Source: Minisyncoccota bacterium (GTDB taxonomy: Bacteria > Patescibacteriota > Microgenomatia > PFEM01 > JAFGMK01). From it: 41,359 bases of DNA. The notes below the pieces were generated by a model. That model saw only the letters and a list, made by a program, of their open reading frames with translations. It was not told the origin of the DNA and did not search any database. The stretch covers positions 65,115-106,473 of the forward strand of contig JAFGMK010000008.1 in NCBI GenBank assembly GCA_016927565.1, written 5' to 3'. Positions 21,027 through 26,271 of this stretch are shown in pieces. Position 1 is the stretch's first letter; every line of letters starts with the position of its first letter. The translations under genes were made by a program, and so were the position numbers.

Positions 21027-21668
21027 ATGAATAAAAAAGCCAAATCTCATTTTGTTTTTGATTTCGATGACACGCTGGCCGACTCCTATAGTTTTAATCA
21101 GCAAATGTTTGTCGAGACCTTTGATCCTTATCTTGAACTTTCACACGAAAGAGCCCAAGCCTATCTGCGCGGGCTACACTTTAAAAATCGGGGAGCGGCG
21201 ATGATTAAAATCTTTGAAAAGGCGCAAAAAAAATTTAGTCTTAAGGTAAGCCCTGAAATCTTGGTCCGGAAGAATGATCAACTTCATCAGAAGAACTTTG
21301 GCCAAATCAAGCTTTTTCCCGCTGTCGTCAAATTTGTCAGACTTTTGAAAAAACAACAAAAGGAACTTTTTATTTGCACTAATCGTGATGTCCACTCAGC
21401 CGAATTAATTTTAAAAAAATATCATCTTAAAAAGCTTTTTAGCGAAGTCGTTTCCTGTAAGGATGCCGGTCGGGAAAAACCTGACCCTTTTTGCCTTTTA
21501 AAGCTGGTCAAAAAAACGGGCCAATCTAAAGAAAATTTTATCTACTTTGGCGACTCAAATGTTGATTTTCAGTTCGCCGACAACGCCGGTGTTGACGCCA
21601 TTATTATTGATCATTATCTAAATCAAAAAAGTTTTTATGAAATTATCATTCAGACATTTTTGGATTAA
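21027..21668 (+). CDS. HAD family hydrolase
   Basis: FVFDFDDTLAD, LFICTNRD, KPDPFCLLKLVKK, FIYFGDSNVDFQFADNAGVD. Confidence 0.88.
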   Translation: MNKKAKSHFVFDFDDTLADSYSFNQQMFVETFDPYLELSHERAQAYLRGLHFKNRGAAMIKIFEKAQKKFSLKVSPEILVRKNDQLHQKNFGQIKLFPAVVKFVRLLKKQQKELFICTNRDVHSAELILKKYHLKKLFSEVVSCKDAGREKPDPFCLLKLVKKTGQSKENFIYFGDSNVDFQFADNAGVDAIIIDHYLNQKSFYEIIIQTFLD

Positions 21669-21669
21669 A

Positions 21670-21816
21670 AATCAGCGCGCAATTCGCCTTCAAGGTGAAA
21701 TTCGTAGCTGTCCTGAGGGTGTTTCCGGTTTAATTGTGGCCTGGAAGCAGAATCCCTCCTGTGAAACGGGGTCTCGTCAACAGTGAGGGTGACTCCCCGG
21801 AGCGCAGGATTTCTTA
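21670..21816 (+). mobile_element. Putative IS200/IS605-family remnant (degenerate tnpB 3' end / omegaRNA-like right end)
   Basis: In-frame tail ...NQRAIRLQGEIRSCPEGVSGLIVAWKQNPSCETGSRQQ* followed by GTGAGGGTGACTCCCCGGAG; resembles tnpB 3' tails, no intact transposase. Confidence 0.4.
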
Positions 21817-21843
21817 ACTAAAAGGCCAAATTTTTGTGTAAAC

Positions 21844-22470
21844 ATGGCTAAAAAAAATCGCCTTGTCTTCGACTTTGACGATACTCTGGCTGATGGTCAG
21901 GTCTTTTGCGGCCAAACGATGGCCCAAACGGTCATTTTTTTTGAGAGTCAAATTGACCCTCGATCAATAATTCGACATCATTACTCGGAAAGAGGCCGGT
22001 CGATTGTGGAGCTCTATCGTTCTGCTATTAAAAAGTTTAACCTCAAAACTCCAATAGATGAATTGCTTCAAAAAGATGCCGAAATTATGGCCGGCCAATA
22101 TCGGCGGATAAGTCTTTTTGAGGGGGCGAAAGACTCTCTTCAATTTCTAAAAGAAAAAGACAAATTTCTTTATATCTGCACCAATCGGAGTTTGAAAAGC
22201 TTAATTCCCCTCCTTAAACACCATCAGGTATGGGGTTTTTTTGACGAAGTAATTTCCTGCCTTGATGAAGGCTTCGCCAAACCTCATCCGAAGTGCCTAA
22301 TCAAACTGATCAAAAAAACTAACCAGAATAAAAAAAGCTTTTTATATCTCGGTGACAGTCAAAAGGACCAACTCTTTGCTCAAAATGCCGGCGTTGATTT
22401 TTTAATTTTTAACCAATATCAAAACGGCAAGAAGTTTTTTGTTAATTTTAGCCGGGCTTTTCTCGGCTGA
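21844..22470 (+). CDS. HAD family hydrolase, paralog of 21027-21668
   Basis: LVFDFDDTLADG, YICTNRS, KPHPKCLIKLIKKT, FLYLGDSQKDQLFAQNAGVD. Confidence 0.88.
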   Translation: MAKKNRLVFDFDDTLADGQVFCGQTMAQTVIFFESQIDPRSIIRHHYSERGRSIVELYRSAIKKFNLKTPIDELLQKDAEIMAGQYRRISLFEGAKDSLQFLKEKDKFLYICTNRSLKSLIPLLKHHQVWGFFDEVISCLDEGFAKPHPKCLIKLIKKTNQNKKSFLYLGDSQKDQLFAQNAGVDFLIFNQYQNGKKFFVNFSRAFLG

Positions 22471-23447: not shown

Positions 23448-24437
23448 GTGATGACAAATATCCAGTTTTTGCAAAAAAAACTAACCCGGATTTCCCGCCA
23501 AACCGGGATCTCTTTGAAAAAGATTAAAGACTGTTTATTGATTCTTTCTTCAGGCAAGCCCGTTCTTAACAATGAACTTCTGCGCCGGGTTGGAATAGCC
23601 CGGAAACCCCTGAACCAAATCAAAAAAAGCCTTTCTTTTCTTTTGATCCCTTCTTCATCCCAAACTCAAGTTAGATCTGATTATTTGGTAATGCTCCAGT
23701 CGCTCTTTGAAGCCGATTATTTTCCCGAAGAAAATGTTTGGTCCTTTTTAAAGAACCAGGATTACTCAAGAATTGTTAAGTTGTTTAACCAATATCAAAA
23801 TCAACAACCGGCTTCTCGAAGAGAGCTGGACCAATTTACGGCAACACCCGAAACCGTTGCTCGGCGGGCTTGTTTGCTGGATTTCTTTGAAGATATCGCC
23901 GACAAAAAAATTTTAGTTTTGGGCGATGATGACTTTACCTCTGTCGCCTTGGCCAGTTTTGGAAGTGCCTTGGAGGTGGTGGTTTTAGAGATTGATTCCC
24001 GGATTATCAAGGGAGTCAGTTTTGTTACATTAAAAGAAAATCTTGAGATTAAGGCCCAAATCTATGATGCCCGACAACCGTTGCCAGAGTCTTGCCGCAA
24101 TCATTTTGATATCGTTTTAACTGATCCGCCCTATACCCCGGCCGGAATCAAACTATTTTTGTCCAGGGCGATTCAGGCCCTTGATCCCAAAAATCAGGCG
24201 GCTCGAATTTATTTATGCTTCGGTGCCAGCGACCGGGCCAAAGAAAGGGTTTTGCCAATTTATCAAATCCTGATTGAATCCGGCTTGATGACTCGCTGGA
24301 TTTTTGATAAATTTAACCGTTACCGGGGGGCGGAATCAATCGGCAGCACCAGTTTTTTGATTGTTGCTGAGGTAACACCTAAGACTAAACCGCTAATCAA
24401 AGGAGAATTCAATGGATCGATCTATACCACTAATTAA
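23448..24437 (+). CDS. BpsA-like branched-chain polyamine (aminopropyl) synthase
   Basis: N-terminal helix-turn-helix-like region; ILVLGDDDFTSVAL and VLTDPPYTPAGIKLFLSRAI signatures; adjacent to AdoMet decarboxylase. Confidence 0.75.
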   Translation: MMTNIQFLQKKLTRISRQTGISLKKIKDCLLILSSGKPVLNNELLRRVGIARKPLNQIKKSLSFLLIPSSSQTQVRSDYLVMLQSLFEADYFPEENVWSFLKNQDYSRIVKLFNQYQNQQPASRRELDQFTATPETVARRACLLDFFEDIADKKILVLGDDDFTSVALASFGSALEVVVLEIDSRIIKGVSFVTLKENLEIKAQIYDARQPLPESCRNHFDIVLTDPPYTPAGIKLFLSRAIQALDPKNQAARIYLCFGASDRAKERVLPIYQILIESGLMTRWIFDKFNRYRGAESIGSTSFLIVAEVTPKTKPLIKGEFNGSIYTTN

Positions 24438-24762
24438 ACATTTCGTTGCTTTGATCAAGATGGATCCTTTCGACTCTTCCGGGAGATTTATTGAGAGCCT
24501 GGCTCAAAAGGTGATCGGGAGTTTGGATTTAAAAGTAGTCCAAAAATTTGAGCATACCTTTAAACCCGATGGAATTACCTTGGGATTTGTTTTGGCCCAA
24601 TCCCACCTGGTGATTCATACCTGGCCCGAGTCAGGCACCATTCATATTGATCTGGTTGCCTGTAGTCCAATTAAAGAAAAAAAATTCAAACAAGCTTTAA
24701 TCTCTTTTCTGGATAAGCAGAATATTCAATTAATTGAAGTGAAGGCCGTAAATTTTTTCTGA
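24412..24762 (+). CDS. speD: S-adenosylmethionine decarboxylase proenzyme
   Basis: LAQSHLVIHTWPESGTIHIDLVACSP retains the pyruvoyl-forming Ser and HTWPE motif. Confidence 0.88.
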   Translation: MDRSIPLIKHFVALIKMDPFDSSGRFIESLAQKVIGSLDLKVVQKFEHTFKPDGITLGFVLAQSHLVIHTWPESGTIHIDLVACSPIKEKKFKQALISFLDKQNIQLIEVKAVNFF

Positions 24763-25782: not shown

Positions 25783-26271
25783 GTGATGATTAAAAGCCTT
25801 CTTTCAGATTTTTCCTGGACAATTTTGTTTCCCAAAGACAAAAATTATCAGGGGACTTTAAATAGCCTTCATGACCAGCTTCTAAAAAAGCACGGCCCGG
25901 ATTACCAGTTTTTTGACTATTTCCGGCTTGATCAAAAACTTCTAGATTTTTACCAATCTTTAAACCTAGATTCGCTCAATATCTTCACCAGCGGTCAGGT
26001 TCAAAACCATTCCCAAGTCAAAAAGGTCTTAAAACCGATCTTTGGTTATATCTTTTCAGCCGAAGTTTTGGGGGCCGGTAAAACTGATCCGGCCTCATTT
26101 ACTTTGGTAGCAGAAAAATTAAACTTAAAGCTAAAGGAGATTTTGTTTATCGATGACCAGGAAAAATATATCGAGGCCGCCAAAAAAGCAGGCTTGGTCA
26201 CCATCCTTTATCGGGGGATAAAAGACCTGAAGGTTAAAATAAAAAACCTTCCCCGATCATTGCTTAGATGA
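25783..26271 (+). CDS. HAD-like family protein with altered motif I
   Basis: LLSDFSWTILFPKD, NIFTSGQVQ, KTDPASFTLVAEKLNLKLKEILFIDDQEKYIEAAKKAGL. Confidence 0.78.
   Translation: MMIKSLLSDFSWTILFPKDKNYQGTLNSLHDQLLKKHGPDYQFFDYFRLDQKLLDFYQSLNLDSLNIFTSGQVQNHSQVKKVLKPIFGYIFSAEVLGAGKTDPASFTLVAEKLNLKLKEILFIDDQEKYIEAAKKAGLVTILYRGIKDLKVKIKNLPRSLLR

Follow-up and report, generated by a model that had tools for sequence, protein, structure and literature searches.

BpsA (EC 2.5.1.128), the branched-chain polyamine synthase of Thermococcus kodakarensis and Thermus thermophilus, is confined to thermophiles according to a 2026 review (PMC12979288). Roles are named for Asp159, Asp160, Asp225, Glu259, and Tyr290 of the T. 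kodakarensis enzyme (Tk-BpsA); the first two position the aminopropyl group of decarboxylated AdoMet (dcAdoMet), and a C-terminal acidic cluster (residues 339-345) carries aminopropyl groups (PMC12979288). The class 1b AdoMet decarboxylases (AdoMetDC, SpeD) include those of A. aeolicus and T. maritima (TM0655), the latter with Ser63, His68, and Cys83 (PMC10407285); the phage AdoMetDC P2559S is also listed as functional (PMC9992855). Where a genome encodes SpeD but no SpeE, the SpeD often proves to be an ODC or ADC (SpeDC or SpeDA), and this pattern is a flag for neofunctionalization, CPR bacteria included (PMC10407285). In Candidatus Pelagibacter, AdoMetDC is part of a functional fusion with an aminopropyltransferase of the SpeE type (PMC11107197). 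We found no open-access literature on BpsA-SpeD pairs or fusions, or on BpsA in Patescibacteria.

The window, which is the whole stretch of 41,359 nucleotides analyzed here, encodes a BpsA-like protein and a SpeD. With BpsA the former shares the PF01861 domain, GDDD, the D225, E259, and Y290 equivalents, and the overall fold. However, its clade is separate and from non-thermophile lineages, the C-terminus is shorter and lacks the acidic carrier cluster, and speD overlaps with or is fused to the gene. The SpeD retains the pyruvoyl Ser, the His and Cys, the Phe and Pro of HxFxPxG, and the HTWPE of class 1b AdoMetDCs, but has a Gln for the cleavage-site Glu, scores below TIGR03330, and falls in its own clade with BpsA-linked SpeDs. 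Like SpeDC and SpeDA, it comes from a CPR genome without SpeE; unlike them, it is without the HSF/HTF-type and insertion features and has an aminopropyltransferase partner. The Pelagibacter fusion, from a streamlined mesophile, combines AdoMetDC and an aminopropyltransferase as do fused relatives of the window pair, whereas the window genes only overlap. Its AdoMetDC comes first with a SpeE-type partner, while here the partner is of the BpsA type and precedes SpeD.

The gene pair and its genome

The bpsA-like gene (23448..24437, plus strand) codes for a 329-aa PF01861 (BpsA_C) aminopropyltransferase homologue, as judged by ORF, Pfam, PDB, AF2, and Foldseek analyses. Its start codon is GTG, or an ATG 3 bases downstream. 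The speD gene (24412..24762, plus strand; ORF, Pfam, and PDB) starts with ATG and codes for a 116-aa class 1b AdoMetDC proenzyme. Its ATG has its own upstream Shine-Dalgarno-like sequence, AAAGGAG, within the bpsA 3' end (24399..24405, plus strand). The initial annotation had described two genes overlapping by 26 bp; both ORFs are real and the overlap is exactly that long. Chance or misannotated ORFs were ruled out by the Pfam and PDB matches and by the co-occurrence of bpsA and speD in dozens of other genomes. A phage origin was also rejected, the sole match to the BpsA protein in a phage collection being MT839461, an unverified faecal scaffold that is probably not phage, as was a plasmid origin, matched by one Nonomuraea replicon only. 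Apart from bpsA and speD themselves, the stand-alone window pair has no conserved neighbors common to relatives. At 21027-22470 of the window are two apparent paralogues, tandem genes for HAD-like hydrolases of 213 and 208 aa, and a third HAD gene is found at 25783-26271.

The genome is small, as first proposed, with 1.19 Mb in 31 contigs (96.5% complete), and encodes one SpeD and one BpsA. We searched it for PF02773, PF01941, PF02784, PF01276, PF00491, PF01564, and FolE, the last as the sole Que-side family. No match was found in this 96%-complete genome to AdoMet synthase, either MetK (PF02773) or archaeal (PF01941), to the Orn/Arg decarboxylases (PF02784 and PF01276), or to arginase/agmatinase (PF00491). 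The SpeE active site has a DSxDP-type motif. The genome's sole match to SpeE (PF01564) is a weak one (27.5 bits) to a 218-aa protein adjoining serS, which has LVDIYLG in that place and was not accepted as a SpeE. The absence of speA, speC, and speE, earlier remarked on for the window, extends genome-wide for the families searched: no ODC/ADC, agmatinase, or convincing SpeE was recovered. Because no genes for AdoMet synthase or for putrescine, agmatine, or spermidine synthesis were found, both AdoMet and the acceptor appear to be scavenged, with a host or neighbors the probable source. The reliance on imported substrate suggested by the initial annotation is supported by the same missing genes. 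Most bpsA-speD relatives also lack an AdoMet synthase.

The BpsA-like protein and gene clusters in relatives

The BpsA-like protein matches PF01861 with 150 bits (cut-off 27; E 9e-44) and the BpsA chains of the PDB with an E value of 3.5e-23; weak methyltransferase Pfam matches were also obtained. It consists of an N-terminal helical HTH-like domain and a Rossmann-type catalytic domain. The GDDDFTS and DPPYT signatures initially reported are present at residues 159-165 (23922..23942, plus strand; alignment to 5xnc and conservation) and 226-230 (24123..24137, plus strand; alignment). In the profile alignment with 5xnc, D161, D162, D226, D262, and Y292 of the window protein align with D159, D160, D225, E259, and Y290 of Tk-BpsA, the E259 position being an Asp (Asp262) and Y316 lying outside the alignment. 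On alignment, a check named in the initial annotation, the conserved catalytic residues of GDDD and DPPYT are kept. The AF2 model of the protein has a pLDDT of 94.1. In a Foldseek search of the PDB, the best nine matches were all BpsA-family (E 8e-21 to 1.5e-18), with 5xnc at the top (7.9e-21) and the next match at 1e-10. The global TM was only ~0.6 and the rmsd high, consistent with the modeled protein having a different domain arrangement or C-terminus.

The C-terminal acidic carrier cluster or DEE motif is absent from the window protein, which has two acidic residues past position 305, and is missing across the whole window clade. In its place these proteins share FNRYxGAESIGS and a C-terminal IYT. 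In the tree, with a midpoint root for drawing only, the Tk and Tt BpsAs are across a 96/91 branch from the window clade. By its sequence the window protein belongs to the BpsA_C superfamily, and we call it only BpsA-like because the acidic carrier cluster, a defining feature of BpsA, was tested for and is absent. The BpsA match first proposed held at the level of the family (PF01861, GDDD/DPPYT, and fold); in the phylogeny suggested as a check on it, the protein did not group with the characterized Thermococcus and Thermus enzymes.

These results bear on whether the protein is a true branched-chain polyamine synthase that, using the dcAdoMet made by SpeD, converts imported spermidine to N4-aminopropyl- and N4-bis(aminopropyl)spermidine. 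We regard this as possible but doubtful. GDDD, DPP, and the E259 (as Asp) and Y290 equivalents are all present, the nearest solved structures by Foldseek are BpsA with N4-aminopropylspermidine, and the genome is without linear polyamine synthesis, all in keeping with such an enzyme. Arguing the other way are the separation from the Tk and Tt enzymes, the clade-wide lack of the acidic cluster or DEE motif, and the reported restriction of BpsA to thermophiles (PMC12979288), yet several relatives are from groundwater-type metagenomes and gut. The branched polyamine product of the initial annotation is not supported, given the separate clade, the missing acidic cluster, and the placement of the pair of several relatives within a preQ0, carbamoyltransferase, and glycosyltransferase (GT) gene cluster, which would not be predicted if the product were a polyamine.

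That cluster is found in several lineages. Downstream of speD, the loci of Woesebacteria (L019 and L027/L166) and Amesbacteria (L025/L167) have folE, queD, queE, and queC and then a NodU-family carbamoyltransferase gene (L019:4986-9996, L166:8363-17555, and L167:10043-18161). A GT2 gene comes after the carbamoyltransferase in L166 and L167, where the stretch reaches further, and L166 has extra genes for SHMT-like, kinase-like, and KsgA/Erm-family methyltransferase proteins. Shapirobacteria (L177:4690-13526, L035, and L037) encode the carbamoyltransferase, GT, SHMT, kinase, and KsgA-like proteins, with a queuosine-precursor transporter and QueC also in L177. Two DPANN loci (L039 and L044) have a bpsA-like gene directly ahead of carbamoyltransferase, KsgA-like, PIG-L, GT, and QueC genes, while UBA6130 (L021/L168 and L023) has folE with DegT aminotransferase and GT genes. 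FolE is encoded in 4/9 bpsA-speD genomes versus 4/128 others (p 6e-4, phylogeny ignored); in those four it is always directly 3' of speD, in one case frameshifted. From its gene content, this looks like a conserved Patescibacteria/DPANN cluster for 7-deazaguanine-based biosynthesis, in which the KsgA/Erm-like methyltransferase possibly serves for ribosome self-protection.

In ultra-small bacteria and DPANN, the BpsA-like clade might then tentatively be assigned aminopropyl transfer in an undescribed biosynthetic pathway that involves a preQ0-type 7-deazaguanine, the carbamoyltransferase, a glycosyltransferase, and the KsgA/Erm-like methyltransferase. If true, dcAdoMet would aminopropylate a nucleoside or a sugar/polyamine conjugate and not a free polyamine. 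The window protein would on this view be an aminopropyltransferase that tailors a 7-deazaguanine nucleoside or another conjugate, and the window pair a reduced form with a scavenged acceptor, which we consider rather unlikely. The recurrence of folE-queD-queE-queC, carbamoyltransferase, GT2, SHMT-like, kinase, KsgA/Erm-like, and PIG-L genes near bpsA(-speD) in Woesebacteria, Amesbacteria, Shapirobacteria, and DPANN, along with the FolE enrichment, points to such a role. However, the window genome encodes no FolE and none of the cluster genes is beside the window pair; in the rest of its contig (C9) the only one is a distant carbamoyltransferase (C9:3910-5628) in other company. The pair also stands alone at four other loci in as many lineages (L170, L171, L172, and L022), and in the DPANN clusters the BpsA-like protein has GDND, with no speD adjoining its gene.

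SpeD and its association with BpsA

SpeD matches PF02675 (AdoMet_dc) with 64.7 bits (cut-off 25; E 1.1e-17) and the T. maritima and A. aeolicus AdoMetDCs in the PDB. We call it a diverged homologue because it scores 56.1 bits against NCBIfam TIGR03330, under the equivalog cut-off of 75.65, a family-naming threshold and not a catalytic feature. As first annotated, the pyruvoyl Ser is kept: Ser64 (24601..24603), the predicted cofactor source, aligns with T. maritima Ser63, as do His69 (24616..24618) with His68 and Cys84 (24661..24663) with Cys83, all on the plus strand. The cleavage-site Glu is replaced by Gln. Phe50-Lys51-Pro52 (24559..24567, plus strand; alignment) belong to HxFxPxG, which is kept in AdoMetDC and lost in ODC/ADC-like homologues. 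Both candidates for the Pro conserved in bona fide AdoMetDCs, P52 and P72, are present.

In keeping Ser64, His69, Cys84, Phe50/Pro52, and HTWPE, the window SpeD resembles the T. maritima and phage P2559S AdoMetDCs. The ODC/ADC-like homologues, for which we used the second SpeD of Microcystis phage MaAM05, LR756501, CPR loci L100-L105, and Woesearchaeota L149, differ in having HSF/HTF and extra residues inserted ahead of the Gly. With respect to the SpeDC diagnostics (Gln, Thr, Phe, and Tyr), the Phe of HSF/HTF and the TQPYV-type segment of those homologues are absent from the window SpeD. The validated phiN3 AdoMetDC is an outlier to the HxFxPxG/HTWPE pattern, and this rule thus has exceptions. 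In the SpeD tree, the BpsA-linked SpeDs are a supported set (99/94) apart from the ODC/ADC-like sequences, with P2559S inside it on a long branch. A divergent SpeD clade (ETSSVTAHFSE...NIFSC) that groups with the phiN3 AdoMetDC is common in class relatives without BpsA (L099, L109, L111, L114, L118-L120, L123, and L150).

We surveyed 137 class-level genomes, including Woesebacteria, Amesbacteria, Shapirobacteria, and Chisholmbacteria, relatives by which the window genome is placed in Patescibacteria and probably in Microgenomatia. BpsA_C is encoded above cut-off in 11 and SpeD in 32. All nine genomes with a GDDD-type BpsA, the window genome among them, also code for SpeD, compared to 23 of the other 128 (Fisher p 8e-7, phylogeny ignored); the two with a GDAD-type BpsA do not. 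In a scan of genome contigs, speD overlaps or directly follows bpsA in most named Patescibacteria, and in Daviesbacteria L032 a speD of the same type is elsewhere in the genome. A single ORF encodes both proteins as a fusion in WWE3 (seven loci), Shapirobacteria L038, Clostridia L092, and faecal scaffold L016, and the SpeD domains of L092 and L016 are canonical AdoMetDCs. The AF2 model of the WWE3 fusion has a low pTM (0.57), and therefore we make no claim of domain contacts. L016 is the phage-collection record MT839461.1; its fused BpsA-Zn-ribbon-SpeD is like that of gut Clostridia, and it is probably bacterial and misfiled as Bacteriophage sp.

The Asp predicted to bind dcAdoMet co-varies with SpeD. 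At the position of Asp161, two Shapirobacteria have Ala and Woesebacteria L018 has Gly, and these three genomes encode no SpeD. The residue is Asn in DPANN L039 and L044, where SpeDs are only of other types, and His in actinomycetes, with no SpeD adjoining. Among Patescibacteria with GDDD, 26 have a SpeD and two (L017 and L023) have only a broken speD frame, versus zero with and three without SpeD where GDDD is lost (p 0.002, by hand and not tree-corrected). The functional pairing first suggested, with AdoMetDC supplying BpsA, is backed by the operon, the gene fusions, and this co-variation.

In several relatives bpsA is intact while speD is damaged (L007, L017, L023, L025, and L030). L017 and L023 keep GDDD with a broken speD frame, L007 has Pro for the catalytic His, the Cys is lost in L030, and speD is truncated in L025. 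Since speD is broken in L017 and L023 and altered in L007, some relatives, as read from these genes, hold a BpsA without a working SpeD.

Other arrangements were also encountered. A second kind of SpeD-BpsA cluster occurs in Woesebacteria Ch104a (L136:3919-6510), where the gene for a third SpeD is followed by those for a radical SAM protein and for a BpsA that is longer (389 aa) and Thermococcus-like. The actinomycete BpsA-like proteins (L040-L095; Nonomuraea, Saccharopolyspora, Streptosporangium, and others) have GDHD in place of GDDD, a C-terminal extension of ~200 aa without a Pfam match, and no speD nearby; they probably have a different activity.

It is improbable that the window SpeD is a neofunctionalized SpeDC or SpeDA beside an AdoMet-dependent methyltransferase, with a pairing not for aminopropyl transfer. 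The published flag of SpeD without SpeE, CPR included (PMC10407285), the weak methyltransferase matches, and the Gln ahead of the cleavage Ser would fit such a pair. Yet Phe50/Pro52 and HTWPE are kept where the ODC/ADC-like proteins have HSF/HTF and the insertion, and the tree places the window SpeD apart from them, both of which disfavor an ODC or ADC. A BpsA partner accounts for the missing SpeE, the fused SpeD domains of L092 and L016 are canonical, and the dcAdoMet-specific Asp co-varies with SpeD. Decay of the pair, with its function lost in the window lineage, is the least probable reading: despite the damaged speD genes of the five relatives above, neither window frame is broken, every catalytic residue is in place, the Shine-Dalgarno sequence is good, and the AF2 confidence is high.

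A predicted aminopropyl-transfer module

The reading we favor, with a probability of roughly 0.7, is that the pair encodes a translationally coupled module for aminopropyl transfer from SpeD to the BpsA-like protein, both activities being predicted from homology. SpeD would self-cleave between Gln63 and Ser64 to give the pyruvoyl enzyme, which would decarboxylate AdoMet to dcAdoMet. The BpsA-like protein would bind dcAdoMet via its GDDD motif and move the aminopropyl group onto an amine acceptor, with AdoMet and acceptor probably scavenged from a host or neighbors. A hand-off of substrate from SpeD to its partner would be favored by the coupled translation of the window genes and by the fusions seen in relatives. 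Since the acidic C-terminal relay is lacking, the aminopropyl group would be expected to pass directly or via another carrier. As acceptor we rank a scavenged polyamine, for example spermidine, first and give it about an even chance. A nucleoside or conjugate is the second choice and a live alternative, because the pairs of several relatives sit in the preQ0 cluster. The product may be either branched or linear, since the acidic relay of Thermococcus BpsA is missing.

The initial annotation considered a branched-polyamine pathway in a small genome to be worthy of note. What emerges here is a distinct clade of BpsA-like proteins with an AdoMetDC of their own, either as a pair or as a fusion, that is widespread in Patescibacteria and also found in gut Clostridia. 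It would represent a second design of BpsA-type aminopropyltransferase, apparently relay-free. A BpsA partner may explain one kind of SpeD without SpeE in CPR bacteria with no need for neofunctionalization, and bpsA-speD marks a conserved, uncharacterized gene cluster in CPR and DPANN.
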